This document shows positions 1 to 36,712 of a DNA stretch of 36,750 nucleotides, one piece after another. Source of the stretch: a virus; IMG/VR virus record IMGVR_UViG_3300009376_001049, positions 1 to 36,750 of that record; one strand, written 5' to 3'. The notes under the pieces were generated by a model, which made no database searches, had not been told where the DNA came from, and saw only the letters and a list, made by a program, of their open reading frames with translations. Position 1 is the first letter of the stretch. Each line of letters starts with the position of its first letter. The position numbers and the translations under genes are program-made.

Positions 1-150
1 TGTGTCTTGTGGTTCCTTGGTCCATGGAGACTGATACTAAGAAGCCCCAGGCTTTGGTCTATGTTTTATGAGTCGCCTTATATTCGGTGTCCACTTTGTA
101 GGTTTACACATCGCTGGAATAAAATAAAAGAGTGTGAATGTGAAATCTGA
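1..150 (+). CDS. Partial small Cys-rich (zinc-binding-like) protein, 3' end
   Basis: Frame 1 is open from the window edge to a TGA at 148-150. The last 29 codons, from an ATG at 61, read MFYESPYIRCPLCRFTHRWN and then a short tail with a CEC motif. A CPLC knuckle followed by His and a second Cys pair looks like a small zinc-binding ribbon. The gene may start at 61 or upstream of the window, since the frame stays open to base 1. It ends 16 bases before the start of the cytochrome gene. No function is recognised. The call rests only on the Cys pattern and the open frame. Confidence 0.45.
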   Translation, partial: CVLWFLGPWRLILRSPRLWSMFYESPYIRCPLCRFTHRWNKIKECECEI

Positions 151-166
151 CCACTTAGGAGGTAAA

Positions 167-505
167 ATGAAAAAATTAATACTCGTCGCCCTAATCGGAT
201 GCTCCCAGTCCACCCCGCCTGATGCGGGAATAGCAGAAGTAGCCAAGCATGATGCCGCAAGGCATCCCGGCGAACGAACCTATATAATGTACTGTACGTC
301 GTGCCATGGTTATGACGGGACTGGACTCAACGGGTTGGGGGCAGACTTTGTGAATGACAAGGCCATCCTCGCCAAGACCGATGGTACATTGCTGCAAAGT
401 ATTTTTGAAGGCAAAGGGCGGATGCCAGCCTGGAAGAATCTTTTGAACGTAGAACAGGCCCTGTTTGTGATAGATTATATTCGCCTATCTTTCGGCGAAA
501 AATAA
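167..505 (+). CDS. Monoheme cytochrome c lipoprotein
   Basis: A 112-aa protein with a short lipoprotein signal: a charged MKK start, a hydrophobic stretch, then a lipobox LIGC with Cys12. After a linker comes one heme-binding motif CTSCH at residues 43-47, and a likely axial Met86 in GRMPAW. The C-terminal helix (VEQALFVIDYIR) fits a class I cytochrome c. The expected product is a membrane-anchored periplasmic electron carrier, with heme attached by the host maturation system. The start at 167 is preferred over an upstream GTG at 134 because AGGAGG lies at 157-162 and this start gives a clean signal peptide. Cytochromes are very unusual in phages. The family assignment is firm; the role during infection is unknown. 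The gene sits beside envelope and lysis-type genes. Confidence 0.88.
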   Translation: MKKLILVALIGCSQSTPPDAGIAEVAKHDAARHPGERTYIMYCTSCHGYDGTGLNGLGADFVNDKAILAKTDGTLLQSIFEGKGRMPAWKNLLNVEQALFVIDYIRLSFGEK

Positions 506-5685: not shown

Positions 5686-7563
5686 ATGAGCGATAACAAT
5701 AATTCAGACAGCGGAAATAACCCCAGGAACGCAGGGGCTCCACTCTTCAAGAGGCTAACCAGACTGTTTAGCGGTCCAATCGTAAATTATGATAGACCAT
5801 CGCCTTCTATGTCTAGGAGAGATATAAAAAAGTATACTTTCACTAGCAGTACTGGCAAGGAGTTTAAGAAAAAAGAGTACTATAACCCCTTTACAGATTA
5901 TAGTAGCAAAGTTTTAGGTGCTAGGAATAAGCAGGTTCGATATACAGACTTTGAGCAAATGGAATACATGCCAGAGATAGCCTCTGCACTTGATGTGTAC
6001 GCAGATGAGATAACGACTTCGAATGCCCTGTCTGACCTAGTGAATATTGAATGCCACAATCATGAAATAAAAGAAATCATTAGAACATTGTTGTATGGTG
6101 TTCTTAATATTGAGTCAAATTTGTTTGGCTGGTCCAGAAGTATGTGCAAGTATGGGGATTATTATCTTTATATTGATCTGGACGATACTATGGGAATAAC
6201 CAATGTTATGCCATTGCCAGTGAGAGAGGTGGAGAGAATCGAGGGCACCGACCCAACAAACCCAAACTACATCCAGTATTTCTGGGAAAACTCTGACAAA
6301 GGTCGAGGCGTTACTTTTGAGAATTGGCAAGTTTCTCACTTCAGAGTACTCGGTAATGATAAATATGTCCCATACGGGACTTCTGTATTGGAGCCTTCGA
6401 GAAGAATTTGGCGTCAACTAGAATTACTTGAAGACGCCATGATGGCCTATCGAATTGTTCGCTCCCCTGAGAGAAGAGTATTCTATATAGACGTCGGAAA
6501 TATTGCTGCGGAAGATGTGGAGCAGTACATAGAACGTGTGAAGACGCAAATGAAGAGAAATCAAATTGTCGATGAAGATTCTGGAAGAGTGGACTTGCGG
6601 TATAATGCTATGAGCATCGACGAGGATTATTACATCCCAATCCGAGGCGGCAACAACAACACCAGAATCGAAACGATTGCTGGCGGACAGTTTACTGGCG
6701 ACATAGACGATGTTCAGTACTTAAGGGATAAATTATTTTCAGCCCTAAAGGTTCCAAAGGCTTACTTGGCTCAGTCTGAGGCTATGGAAGATAAAACTAC
6801 CTTAGCGCAAAAGGATATAAGGTTCGCAAGAACTATTCAAAGGTTGCAGCGGGTAGTTATCGCTGAAGTAGAAAAACTTTGTATCATACACCTATTTTCC
6901 TTAGGATTTAGGGATAAGGACCTTTTATCCTTTAAACTGTCTTTGAATAACCCATCTAAGATCGCCGAGTTGCAAGAACTAGAGCACCTGAGAACAAAGT
7001 TTGATATTGCTGGCAGCGCAACCGATGGATACTTTTCAAAACGATGGGTTTATAAGAGTATCTTTAAGTTATCAGAGGAAGAAATTCAGAGAATACAAAT
7101 CGAGCAGTTTTCCGATGCTAAACTCACTGCTCTGGTAGAGGCAGAAGGCGAGGCACTTTCCGCTGAAGGCGAGGGTGGCGAAGGTGGCGAAGGTCTCGAC
7201 GACCTTCTCGGAGGCGAGGGCGGCGACGAAGATCTTCTTGGCGATGAAGAGGAAGGCGAGGAAGGACCCCTTCTAGCAGAACCGGAAGAGCCCGGACAAA
7301 GAGATGATTGGTATAAACCGGTAACATCACCAAAGTGGAAACAGGGGGCACGAAAGAGGAGTTATTTATCTTCCGCCGGAAACAATATTGCCTCATCCTC
7401 CGAGAGAAACCTATTTAAAGGGTGGTCTGGCGAGATGTCTCCTCTATCAAGAGGGATTGTAGGGGAAGGGCTTGACAGAGAAGAGCAACTCCTGAAAAAT
7501 ACTCAGGTAGAGGTCAAAAAATTAATAGAGCAGTTGGAGCAAAAAAATGAAAAGGAAACATAA
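5686..7563 (+). CDS. 20: Portal protein (gp20-like)
   Basis: A 625-aa protein that forms the dodecameric portal vertex, through which DNA enters and to which neck and tail attach. Typical T4-family portal stretches include YMPEIASALDVYADEI near residue 95, SRRIWRQLELLEDAMMAYRI, RAPERR-like RSPERRVFYIDVGN, and LFSALKVPKAYLAQSE. The C-terminal part carries an unusual run of Gly, Glu and Asp (about residues 485-540) and then a basic, Ser-rich end. The gene directly follows gp17, giving the order 16/17/20 with sheath and tube genes moved downstream compared with T4. It overlaps the next gene by 17 bases. Confidence 0.96.
   Translation: MSDNNNSDSGNNPRNAGAPLFKRLTRLFSGPIVNYDRPSPSMSRRDIKKYTFTSSTGKEFKKKEYYNPFTDYSSKVLGARNKQVRYTDFEQMEYMPEIASALDVYADEITTSNALSDLVNIECHNHEIKEIIRTLLYGVLNIESNLFGWSRSMCKYGDYYLYIDLDDTMGITNVMPLPVREVERIEGTDPTNPNYIQYFWENSDKGRGVTFENWQVSHFRVLGNDKYVPYGTSVLEPSRRIWRQLELLEDAMMAYRIVRSPERRVFYIDVGNIAAEDVEQYIERVKTQMKRNQIVDEDSGRVDLRYNAMSIDEDYYIPIRGGNNNTRIETIAGGQFTGDIDDVQYLRDKLFSALKVPKAYLAQSEAMEDKTTLAQKDIRFARTIQRLQRVVIAEVEKLCIIHLFSLGFRDKDLLSFKLSLNNPSKIAELQELEHLRTKFDIAGSATDGYFSKRWVYKSIFKLSEEEIQRIQIEQFSDAKLTALVEAEGEALSAEGEGGEGGEGLDDLLGGEGGDEDLLGDEEEGEEGPLLAEPEEPGQRDDWYKPVTSPKWKQGARKRSYLSSAGNNIASSSERNLFKGWSGEMSPLSRGIVGEGLDREEQLLKNTQVEVKKLIEQLEQKNEKET
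7141..7266 (+). repeat. GGCGA-rich low-complexity stretch inside gp20
   Basis: Short imperfect direct repeats built on GAAGGCGAGG and GGTGGCGAA encode an acidic Gly/Glu/Asp-rich segment of the portal C-terminus. The stretch is purine-rich and clearly unlike the surrounding A+T-rich codons. It may have arisen by slippage. It stays in frame, so the protein is not broken. Confidence 0.7.
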
Positions 7564-8371
7564 CAAGAAGAGAAACACCGCTTTTTTGTTTGAAACCCTT
7601 GTTAGGGAGTTGACGAAGGCTTTTGTTTCGAGAGATTCTGATAGGTCCACAAAAATAAAAACAATTTTCAAGGAGTCTTTTAATCGAGGGTCCGTTTTGG
7701 TGCGAGAACTGGATTGCTATAAAGCACTACAGGAAAAATCTGGACTTGATAAGTATACTGCTGAAAAGCTGATCTTTGAAGCAAAATCTAAGTATAAGAA
7801 ATTAGATAAGGATGAGATTTTTGCGGAACAGTCTGCTGTTATAAAAAAGATAAATCATGACTTGGGCACAGATACCTATAATAATTTTGTTCCTAACTAT
7901 AAAACATACGCAACACTATCACAAATTTTTGGAGATAAAATACCTGTGAAAAACAGGGTTCTCCTAGAGTCAGAAGTCCTAGAGAGATTAGTGTGCGAAG
8001 ATAATCAAGAAAAACCCATGAAACACGTTGACACGCTTGTTGTCAAGACGTTTACTAAAAACTTTAACGATAAGTATGACACTCTCCTAGAATCACAGAG
8101 AGAACTACTTCAGCAATATGTTATATCATTTTTAGATAACGGTGTTGACTTTAAGATTTACCTCGGCGAACAATTATCTAAGATTAGGGAAGAAATTCAA
8201 AACTCTTTTAGTCTTGAAGAGGTTAGGGATGACAGCGAAATGGTTAAAAACACCGAAGCAGCCTTGACTCTAGTAGAAAGTATAGATGTATCCTCGATCG
8301 GGAAGAAAGAATTAACTAAAGTCTTAAAACTACAAAAACTAATAGAAGAGTATAAGAACAATGCCGATTAA
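7547..8371 (+). CDS. Conserved structural-region protein between gp20 and gp21
   Basis: A 274-aa, highly charged, mostly helical protein starting MKRKHNKKRNTAFLFETLVR. No catalytic motif, signal or membrane segment is visible. It lies in the interval that in T4 holds small head genes (67, 68), and its charge and helicity would fit a prohead core or portal-associated protein. That is inference from place and composition. The start lies inside the gp20 end and the stop overlaps the next start by 11 bases, so it is translated within the head operon. The function is unknown. Confidence 0.7.
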   Translation: MKRKHNKKRNTAFLFETLVRELTKAFVSRDSDRSTKIKTIFKESFNRGSVLVRELDCYKALQEKSGLDKYTAEKLIFEAKSKYKKLDKDEIFAEQSAVIKKINHDLGTDTYNNFVPNYKTYATLSQIFGDKIPVKNRVLLESEVLERLVCEDNQEKPMKHVDTLVVKTFTKNFNDKYDTLLESQRELLQQYVISFLDNGVDFKIYLGEQLSKIREEIQNSFSLEEVRDDSEMVKNTEAALTLVESIDVSSIGKKELTKVLKLQKLIEEYKNNAD

Positions 8372-33483: not shown

Positions 33484-34704
33484 TTGCTGTTTCAGACATT
33501 AGATGACAAAGCTGAGTGTGTGGGCATATACACCAACAAAGAGATGATCTTTGATCCGGACAAATTTCCTGATAGTATCTCCCAGACTTGGAGCTATTCT
33601 CCTTATTTGCGGGGCAGGGATATCGACTATGCCTCTTTGTTTCTGGAGGGCAGATCACTGGCTGGCTGCATTCCTGAATATTTACGAGATGATTGGGATG
33701 ATGTGTCAGAGAGAATACTAGCTTTCAAGAGATCTCTTAGTATATCAAAAGTAAATCAAGATGAAAACTGTTTTTTTGACTTGGTGCCGGAAAGATTTTT
33801 AGTCGATTTCTGCGAGGTGAAGAATCGTATAACAGAACATGTTCTTCAAACAATGGAAAGACCAAAAAGATATGGCTTTTATAAACATGTCTCGATGCTC
33901 TTGGGCGACATAGCCTCTCAGCCAATTAATGTTGACAAGAAGAAATTATTATCATATACAGAAAATCCAAAGACCGGCGGACAGGCCAGGTCACTCCTGA
34001 CATCACCACCGTATGTTAGGTACAAGCAATTCGGCACTAAGACAGGGCGCTTAACGACCGATAAAAACTCGTTTCCGATATTGACACTGAACAAGCATCT
34101 TCGTTCTATCATCAAGCCACAAAATGACATGTACGTTGAGTTTGATTTCAACGGTGCTGAGATTCGTACTTTGCTTGGCTTGTTAGACGAGCCGCAGCCG
34201 AAAGAAGATGTTCACCAATTCCACCTTCAGAGGATTTTCAATTCTTCAGTAACCAGGGAGCAGGCCAAAGTATATTTTTTTTCTTGGCTGTATGGATCGA
34301 GAGAAATGTCAACCAAACAAGAGGGAAAAGAATTAGAAAAGTTTTACGACAGAGAAAAGCTGCTCAAAGGCTTTTATAATGACAACCAAGTGACGACACC
34401 ATACGGGAAAACCATGAAAGATGTCAGCAGGCATCACGCATTAAACTACTTGGTTCAATCCACTACGGCAGAACTGACTTTGAAGCAGGCTCTTAAGATT
34501 GATTATCTTTTGCGGACCAAGGGTTCTGGGTCAAAAATAGCTTTCTTGATACATGATGCTATCGTTCTAGATCTGAAAAAAGAAGACAAACATCTACTAC
34601 CTTCGGTTTTTCGCTTGATGAAATCCACCAATTTTGGAGAGTTCGGTGTAAATACTAAGTCAGGCAAGTGCCTGGGAACACTTAGGGAGTTTGAAATTGG
34701 ATAA
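33484..34704 (+). CDS. Short family-A DNA polymerase-like protein
   Basis: A 406-aa protein with family-A polymerase motifs in order: GTKTGRLTTDKNSFPILTL (184-202), motif A VEFDFNGAEIRTLLGLL (218-234, Asp221), a finger-type EQAKVYFFSWLYGS (259-272, Lys262 and Tyr270-Gly271), NYLVQSTTAELTL (321-333) and motif C LIHDAIVLDL (355-364). The usual HDE is HDA here, but the Asp is kept. There is no room for a 3'-5' exonuclease and the thumb is small. The TTG start (AAGG upstream) sits 11 bases after a structural gene. It may polymerise DNA, act in repair, or be a non-replicative descendant. A main replicase would lie outside the window. Confidence 0.78.
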   Translation: MLFQTLDDKAECVGIYTNKEMIFDPDKFPDSISQTWSYSPYLRGRDIDYASLFLEGRSLAGCIPEYLRDDWDDVSERILAFKRSLSISKVNQDENCFFDLVPERFLVDFCEVKNRITEHVLQTMERPKRYGFYKHVSMLLGDIASQPINVDKKKLLSYTENPKTGGQARSLLTSPPYVRYKQFGTKTGRLTTDKNSFPILTLNKHLRSIIKPQNDMYVEFDFNGAEIRTLLGLLDEPQPKEDVHQFHLQRIFNSSVTREQAKVYFFSWLYGSREMSTKQEGKELEKFYDREKLLKGFYNDNQVTTPYGKTMKDVSRHHALNYLVQSTTAELTLKQALKIDYLLRTKGSGSKIAFLIHDAIVLDLKKEDKHLLPSVFRLMKSTNFGEFGVNTKSGKCLGTLREFEIG

Positions 34705-35554
34705 AGTGATCGGCGTTGGGGAGTTTGGCTGTGCTCTTGCAGAAGAGTTGACAGCTTATCCGGAATATCGTGTATATAAAATTAACTCTGAGACAACAGA
34801 GAGGGGCTCCTTAGGTATAGGGAGTTACTCGGATATGCAAGAGTATGAAAGCAATATTGACGAGGACGAAGTAGCAGTTTACCTTAGGTCCGTCAGAGAC
34901 GGCGATGAAGTTCTTGTAGTTGTTGAAGGCGGCGACCCAATCACGGGCTCTTTGTTGAGAATTTTAAATACTATCAGTGAAGCGAAGATTTCTGTTCTGT
35001 ATGTTTGCCCAGATAGAAACATATGCTCCGAGATCCAGAAAAGAGACGACAAAATATGCTTCAATGTGATTCAGGAATATGCCAGAAGCGGTGTCCTAGA
35101 TAGGGTCTACTTAGTGAACAAGTCTTCGGTCGAGGCCTTGGTTGGAGACGTTTCAATACAGGAATATGAAAAAAGCATTTCATATTTTATATCCTATGTG
35201 GTGGCGATGGTCAACTATTTTAACCATAGTGATGCGATAGTATTGAACAAGATGAGTATCAAGAATTCCTGTAGGGTTGCCACATTCGGTGTTTGTTCCC
35301 TAGATAACAAGACACCCGTCAATTTATTATTCCCCCTGAAGAAAATATCAGATGTTCACTTTTACTATGGGCTACCAAGCGACGTGATAGAGGGCGATGG
35401 AACTTTGATGAAAAAAATAAAACAACAAGTAAGAGATTACAAAACCGATGAATCCATGAGCGTTGGATTCTCTGTTTATTCCCTTACGTTGCCGGATCCT
35501 TTTGTTGTCTGTACAGCCTACTCGAATGAAATACAAAATTTTGCCTTCGTTTAA
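34697..35554 (+). CDS. Divergent tubulin/FtsZ-like protein
   Basis: A 285-aa protein from a TTG at 34697, 7 bases after GGGAG; a TTG at 34691 is too close to that site. The outline follows the tubulin fold and the phage's own tubulin-like protein: a T1-type GVGEFGCALAEEL (6-18), YKINSE where FtsZ has NTD, a glycine-poor T4-type VEGGDPITGSLLRIL (76-90) and LVNKSSVEALVG (139-150, cf. MVDNEKIKKLYP). The helix ISYFISYVVAMVNYFNHSD (161-179) matches INNTVAGLFHVFNVL. The acidic T7 residues of FtsZ are not seen. It may be a non-hydrolysing partner or regulator of the canonical homologue, which is inference. It overlaps the polymerase-like gene by 8 bases. Confidence 0.65.
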   Translation: MDKVIGVGEFGCALAEELTAYPEYRVYKINSETTERGSLGIGSYSDMQEYESNIDEDEVAVYLRSVRDGDEVLVVVEGGDPITGSLLRILNTISEAKISVLYVCPDRNICSEIQKRDDKICFNVIQEYARSGVLDRVYLVNKSSVEALVGDVSIQEYEKSISYFISYVVAMVNYFNHSDAIVLNKMSIKNSCRVATFGVCSLDNKTPVNLLFPLKKISDVHFYYGLPSDVIEGDGTLMKKIKQQVRDYKTDESMSVGFSVYSLTLPDPFVVCTAYSNEIQNFAFV

Positions 35555-36097: not shown

Positions 36098-36712
36098 ATG
36101 GGTATTGATCTTAACAAGATGCGGCAGAAACACGCTGCTCTTACGACCAGAGGAGGCGACTCCTCAGAAAACTATTGGAAGCCAGAGGAAGGCACGCACC
36201 AGTTACGACTAGTGTGTCCACCAAACGGCGATCCTTTCTTTGAGGCATATTACCACTACGGCATGGGTGCCGAAGGTAAGACTACTGTCCTCAGTCCACG
36301 AACTAATGGCGATCCCGATCCCATTGCAGAGTGGGGAACCAGCCTTTGGAACGAAGGCACTGACGGCTCCAAGGAGGCAGCCAAACGCTTTTGGCCGAAG
36401 ATGCGAATCTTTGCTCCCGTCGTCGTTCGTGGCGAAGAGGACAAGGGTGTTCGCTGGTGGGGCTTTTCCCGCACCACCTATCAGGCTCTACTTGATGTAG
36501 TGCTTGACCCTGAGTACGGTGACATTACCGACACCGAAAAGGGTACGGACATTCGCATTGACTACGGCAAGAAGTCGGGTCAATCATTCCCAACGACTGA
36601 CGTGCGCCCCATGCGCCGCACCTCACCCTTGGCGAAGACCGAAGAAGAAGTCAACACTCTTCTTGAAACCATCAAGGACGCAGCGGATGTGTTTGAGGTC
36701 GCTACTTACTAG
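36098..36712 (+). CDS. 32: Single-stranded DNA-binding protein (gp32-like), ends at TAG
   Basis: A 204-aa protein. A basic N-terminal segment (LNKMRQKHAALTTR) leads into an OB-type core: EGTHQLRLVCPPNGDPF, then YHYGMGAEGKTTVL, then RFWPKMRIFAPVVVRGEEDK (~96-115) and GFSRTTYQALLDVVLDPEYG. The end includes TDIRIDYGKKSG. This matches T4 gp32 order, which coats ssDNA in replication, recombination and repair. Where T4 has zinc ligands (C..H..CPVC), this protein has VLSPRTNGDPDPIAEWG and no Cys. It ends at a TAG while T4 gp32 is 301 aa, and the same frame continues open to the window edge. AAAGGAG precedes the ATG. Confidence 0.82.
   Translation: MGIDLNKMRQKHAALTTRGGDSSENYWKPEEGTHQLRLVCPPNGDPFFEAYYHYGMGAEGKTTVLSPRTNGDPDPIAEWGTSLWNEGTDGSKEAAKRFWPKMRIFAPVVVRGEEDKGVRWWGFSRTTYQALLDVVLDPEYGDITDTEKGTDIRIDYGKKSGQSFPTTDVRPMRRTSPLAKTEEEVNTLLETIKDAADVFEVATY

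Follow-up and report, generated by a model that had tools for sequence, protein, structure and literature searches.

Nearly all that is known of tubulin relatives concerns proteins that form filaments. Can a phage that carries an active-looking tubulin also hold an inactive-looking one, and, if so, do the two proteins work together or does the second serve some other process? This question is raised by an IMG/VR record of an uncultured phage, a linear fragment 36,750 bases long (here called the window) with T4-like terminase, portal and capsid genes. The original prediction was that a reading frame beside a polymerase-like gene encodes a degenerate tubulin-fold protein (referred to below as X), and that X and the phage's own tubulin-like protein, the product of gene A, could represent an undescribed two-component cytoskeletal system. 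The features concerned are collected in Table 1.

Table 1. Features of the window that bear on protein X
Feature	Position	Strand	Support
Gene A, intact-looking TubZ/FtsZ-like protein, 377 aa	1626..2759	+	Pfam Tubulin 2e-9, TubZ-like_C 2.5e-6
PolA-family polymerase-like gene, 406 aa, no exonuclease domain	33484..34704	+	Pfam DNA_pol_A 7e-14
AGGGAG, ribosome-binding-site-like	34684..34689	+	7 nt before the TTG of X at 34697; direct reading
8-nt overlap of polymerase-like ORF end and X start, TTGGATAA	34697..34704	+	Sequence reading
Protein X, degenerate tubulin/FtsZ-fold, 285 aa, TTG start	34697..35554	+	AlphaFold2, Foldseek, VIA, 91-sequence family, dN << dS
147-aa protein, homologue of gp002 of Flavobacterium phage immuto	35590..36033	+	blastp 34% identity, E 4e-20
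gp32-like SSB	36098..36712	+	PHROG 1192 E 8e-17, Pfam gp32 1e-5

Protein X and its family

The reading frame of X is a real gene. Compared with a homologue of 89% identity it shows a dN of 0.058, a dS of 1.86 and a dN/dS of ~0.03, and strong purifying selection is clear. We aligned 91 distinct homologues, which split with 100/100 support into clade I (24 sequences, the window's clade) and its sister clade II, the larger of the two (67 sequences). In most clade I homologues the start is a TTG at the same junction with the polymerase gene. Another TTG lies upstream of the X start, at 34691, but is disfavoured because the homologues align from M-D-K. The 8-nt overlap between the polymerase-like gene and X suggests translational coupling.

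Searches of IMG/VR recovered 47 X loci with one profile and 193 with another. None was found among 50,697 phage records at tblastn sensitivity, a pattern scan of cellular genomes detected no relatives, and neither a curated Pfam, PHROG or NCBIfam assignment for the family nor a description of X in the literature searched was found. One homologue (contig G072, 11227-12060, locus L154), which has gene A on the same contig, contains a single in-frame TAA, either a sequencing error or a true loss.

Fold of protein X

Single-sequence searches of Pfam, PHROGs and NCBIfam with the window's X revealed no tubulin, and weak Pfam and PDB matches pointed to a Rossmann/TrkA-type NAD-binding protein. That identity is ruled out by the predicted structure, which has a full-length tubulin fold. 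The AlphaFold2 model, obtained from a 36-sequence alignment (pLDDT 92.7, pTM 0.91), has the two-domain architecture with the core helix H7 and the same order of elements as FtsZ over residues 1-285. Its top Foldseek matches in PDB are FtsZ structures (E 6e-13). VIA-align, applied to the same residues, gave Z-scores in the range of 22-26, including 25.7 for CetZ, 24.6 for FtsZ and 24.1 for TubZ (4ei7), and the best viral structural match is an FtsZ-like protein from an uncultured phage (TM 0.79). The second tubulin-fold protein proposed for this position is therefore indeed predicted there, and modelling of the monomer, which had been suggested as a check, turned out in its favour. The neighbouring genes had also made us consider a sliding clamp or another replication fold, which the structure search ruled out.

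The relationship can also be traced by comparing profiles. In the hhalign alignment of X with gene A, LVNKSS stands opposite MVDNEK and the match runs on through the core helix (E 1e-3, or 1e-4 with the distant X clade), so the earlier by-eye alignment of the two proteins was right. The X profile matched gene A at the core helix with E ~1e-5 to 1e-6 per contig, and the whole X family aligned over its full length with phage tubulins plus E. coli FtsZ (E 1.7e-5, probability 79%). When tubulin profiles were run on three clade II genomes, X was the best remaining match (E 1.6e-5, 8e-4 and 0.019); on 1,350 ORFs of two control phages such profiles gave no match better than E 0.45.

Degeneration of the tubulin motifs

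The motif equivalences given here derive from profile alignments and predicted secondary structure rather than from superposed coordinates. The T1 loop of X is G-L-G-x-x-G, and its glycines G6, G8 and G11 are kept in 100% of the sequences. In place of the canonical GGGTG(S/T)G, T4 reads GG[DE]P[IV][ST]G in clade I and xxGxISG, lacking the GTPase signature, in clade II. Neither clade has a conserved acidic column at the T7 position, where gene A keeps FDATD. The loss of T4 glycines and T7 acids, originally noticed in the window's protein, thus holds across the family alignment. The guanine-contact triad, which we take to be the T6 Asn, the H7 aromatic residue and the H7 Asn (tubulin N206, Y224 and N228), is kept in 65/67 clade II sequences and in 0/24 of clade I. 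Its positions are occupied by K, E and S in the window's X and mostly by K/R, E and S across clade I. Furthermore, the stretch from residue 177 to residue 227 of the X model, where H8 and H9 are found in tubulins, is free of helices. In tubulin, FtsZ and PhiKZ TubZ the longitudinal contact involves T7, the base of H8 and S9 (PMC3678025), and the lower T7/H8 interface by which polymerising tubulins (FtsZ, TubZ and PhuZ) can be recognised is absent from the X model. Taken together, fold and homology make it near certain that X belongs to the tubulin/FtsZ superfamily, and its degeneracy is near certain as well.

Gene A and its co-occurrence with X in clade I

Besides the T7 motif, gene A has T1 GAGQGGG, T4 GVSGGSGGG and T6 MVDN, and it gives PDB profile matches to CetZ/TubZ and an NCBIfam match to TIGR00065 (1e-13). 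Its AlphaFold model, computed from 15 nearly identical alignment rows, has a pLDDT of 48, and for this reason the fold is assigned from the Pfam, PDB-profile and NCBIfam matches. The window therefore contains both an active-looking and an inactive-looking tubulin homologue, as had been claimed. Gene A belongs to the head module and is located ~31-34 kb from X. The two genes are found together in 14/14 clade I contigs long enough for both (window included), and no clade I contig spanning both sites was found to be without one of them; G072, whose X carries the in-frame TAA, is among the fourteen.

Some additional observations were made on gene A and on the window. Among contigs, gene A (L009-L088) is 92-95% identical, which would indicate unusually strong conservation or a recent spread; across contigs sharing such a gene A, a 1246-aa ORF drops to as low as 26% identity. 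Cellular genomes yielded one divergent gene-A-type locus (L296, 5001-6023), a TubZ-like gene in an uncultured-bacterium bin that is 36% identical to the lead sequence of the query alignment. Its contig may represent a phage in the bin, which would be a clue to the host. In the window itself, the product of 134-505 (+) combines a lipobox-like signal sequence with a CTSCH haem-binding motif and resembles a small c-type cytochrome, and two sets of adjacent similar genes (26191-27057/27063-27947 and 11972-12406/12473-12901) look like tandem-duplicated structural proteins.

Protein X without a detected second tubulin in clade II

The expectation that the two genes would co-occur across related phages is borne out in clade I but not in clade II, where PF00091 had no match in X-carrying contigs of 204, 162, 172 and 186 kb. 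A broader phage-tubulin profile applied to whole clade II contigs and an unfiltered search of ~60 kb upstream of X returned X itself or nothing, an absence that is bounded by profile sensitivity and contig completeness. More specifically, the broader profiles found X alone in G088, G089 and G037 and nothing in G085 and G086, and in the latter two, where X is barely caught by the tubulin profile, the absence of a second tubulin is sensitivity-limited.

There is one exception. The 54 kb clade II contig G090 has a second intact tubulin, L244 (1015-2055, minus strand; 346 aa, with an acidic N-terminal tail and ~30% identical to gene A), together with an X whose triad is intact, and consequently triad loss does not strictly track the second tubulin. 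L244 and its relatives L246-L250 make up another family of phage TubZ/PhuZ-like proteins, intact but divergent. The broader profiles were built after L244 had been found and still detected no partner in the long contigs, which led us to reject the explanation that the partner is missing only through Pfam insensitivity. A candidate in G087 (279 aa, E 0.05) was discarded as a tubulin, as by eye it is like the window's 274-aa protein (7547-8371). Given clade II, X probably can exist without a tubulin partner, and the obligate co-occurrence by which a heteromeric tubulin system could be recognised is not observed for the X family.

Replication neighbourhood

A PolA-like gene lies directly upstream of X in 86/96 loci with enough upstream sequence, and a gp32-like SSB gene is found downstream in 76/76 loci with enough downstream sequence. 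In clade I, the slot between X and SSB is taken by the 147-aa protein. The PolA-like proteins constitute an exonuclease-less family of ~400 aa that keeps R668, D705, E710, R754, K758, F762, Y766, Q849, H881 and D882 (E. coli Pol I numbering), E883 being replaced by S, A or N (A in the window). In other words, the predicted polymerase-like neighbour is real and, apart from E883, has kept its catalytic residues. In seven long contigs (G002, G031, G060, G037, G085, G086 and G088) the X-adjacent gene is the only PolA-family gene found, and all seven encode a full-length DnaE of 1,137-1,162 aa 11-18 kb beyond X. As DnaE is the likelier replicative polymerase, the PolA-like neighbour of X may be a minor one. 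It is worth pointing out in its own right that these phages encode both DnaE in full length and a short PolA-type polymerase that lacks the exonuclease domain and has A/S in place of E883.

Further along the module, clade II has genes for RecA, a 5' exonuclease and DnaB. By terminase, the nearest isolated relative is Flavobacterium phage immuto, in which the order is polymerase, homologue of the 147-aa protein, SSB, RecA, exonuclease and DnaB. Neither X nor any tubulin was detected in immuto in a search that covered all but ~3 kb (109-112 kb). Since immuto runs the same module without X, a module of this kind can do without X. Comparison of the four genes in the same contig pairs gave identities of 92-95% for gene A, 46-89% for X, 51-88% for the PolA-like protein and 72-97% for SSB; judging from these identities, the divergence of X tracks that of the PolA-like protein and not that of gene A.

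Discussion

X is often found with a normal phage tubulin yet also without one; its probable role is therefore in DNA replication, and a two-part cytoskeleton with X as one half is improbable. A role in replication is supported by the observation that the association with polymerase and SSB is still seen in genomes where no second tubulin could be detected. Nonetheless, gene adjacency is no proof of joint function. The explanation that we favour, giving it an even chance, is that X is a pseudo-tubulin, namely a monomeric, non-hydrolysing accessory protein of the phage replication module. Lacking T7 and H8, X would neither polymerise head to tail nor complete the GTPase site of a neighbour. It would be produced in step with the polymerase by means of the 8-nt start/stop overlap and would act on the polymerase, SSB or their complex with DNA. 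In clade II, X may be a guanine-nucleotide-bound switch, and in clade I, to which the window belongs, it would be nucleotide-independent. With distinctly less than even confidence, we also suggest an evolutionary scenario in which a tubulin-fold protein left the cytoskeleton to become a dedicated subunit of the DNA-synthesis complex, at first nucleotide-bound and acting as a switch (clade II) and later nucleotide-free (clade I).

Other explanations have to be considered. X might be inactive itself but associate with the TubZ-like filament of the phage as a partner or cap, its upper face binding the T7/H8 end of the gene A product and thereby capping or timing the filament. The presence of both genes in 14/14 clade I contigs covering the two positions, the retention of the fold with loss of the polymerisation features, and the loss of guanine contacts in the same clade that has gene A are all consistent with this possibility, for which ARC3, a regulator of chloroplast FtsZ rings, provides a precedent (PMC4593956). 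However, four clade II contigs of 162-204 kb have X and no detectable second tubulin, X is linked to polymerase and SSB, with gene A ~33 kb away, the identity of X goes down to 46% where that of gene A stays at 92-95%, and in G090 a second tubulin coexists with an X that has kept the triad. We consider such a role somewhat unlikely, and it cannot be the general role of the X family unless the clade II partners are undetectably divergent. Thus, of the proposed two-component cytoskeleton, what remains is the co-occurrence in clade I; clade II, the polymerase/SSB linkage and the differing divergence speak against a dedicated pair. Alternatively, the target might be in the host, X being an FtsZ mimic that binds host FtsZ, caps its filaments and blocks or reorganises host division. 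FtsZ-binding phage division inhibitors are known in general, the closest solved structures to X are those of FtsZ, CetZ and TubZ, X lacks the lower interface, and a mimic would account for X in genomes having no other tubulin. Yet a fixed place in a replication operon would be unusual for a host-takeover protein, as these tend toward variable early regions, and we regard this explanation as unlikely.

It could also be argued that X still builds a non-canonical filament or lattice which anchors the replication centre. The base-contact triad in 65/67 clade II proteins would make nucleotide binding plausible there, and tubulins are reported to place DNA in other phages (PMC4244570). Against this are the lack of a conserved T7 acid and of a helix at the H8 position, as well as the disappearance of all three base contacts in clade I, and we find such a structure quite improbable. 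As for a decaying pseudogene or a spurious ORF, the in-frame TAA in one homologue is outweighed by 91 distinct intact homologues, the low dN/dS, a confident fold and a conserved position. These refute it, and we assign it next to no probability.

How does X compare with known members of the superfamily? TubZ, the partition tubulin of plasmids and phages (RepX on some Bacillus plasmids), has the same fold (Z 24.1 to 4ei7) and, like X, is carried by mobile elements. TubZ-type genes also support plasmid replication (PMC4219350), a loose functional parallel to X. In contrast to TubZ, X lacks the T4 signature, the conserved T7 acids and H8, is ~100 aa shorter and resides in a polymerase-SSB operon. 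FtsZ and CetZ are the best solved-structure matches and X retains the T1 glycine motif, but it differs from them by the absence of the GTPase signature, the conserved catalytic acids and the helices at the H8/H9 positions. PhuZ of nucleus-forming jumbo phages is likewise a phage-encoded tubulin superfamily protein; however, PhuZ is a dynamic filament former, whereas X is devoid of the elements required for filaments, and X-bearing genomes are set apart from PhuZ phages by T4-like structural genes and by DnaE plus a short PolA. The nearest described family of possibly non-filament-forming proteins is FtsZl1, highly diverged superfamily members suspected to form non-standard filaments or none (Makarova and Koonin 2010, PMC2875224). 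Unlike X, FtsZl1 has kept the GTP-binding GGGTG(S/T)G loop, has a coiled coil and occurs in membrane-remodelling loci (PMC2875224). ARC3 of plant chloroplast division resembles X in having an FtsZ-like domain and regulates true FtsZ (PMC4593956), but it is a plant multidomain protein with no demonstrated relation to replication.

As far as alignments and the structural model can tell, the X family appears to have kept its fold under strong selection with polymerisation and, in clade I, nucleotide binding removed. Clades I and II thereby offer a natural before/after series for the repurposing of a GTPase fold, and the fixed polymerase-SSB setting of X makes a direct biochemical test easy. If the replication role is true, X would be the first case known to us of a tubulin-superfamily protein acting as a subunit of a replication complex.
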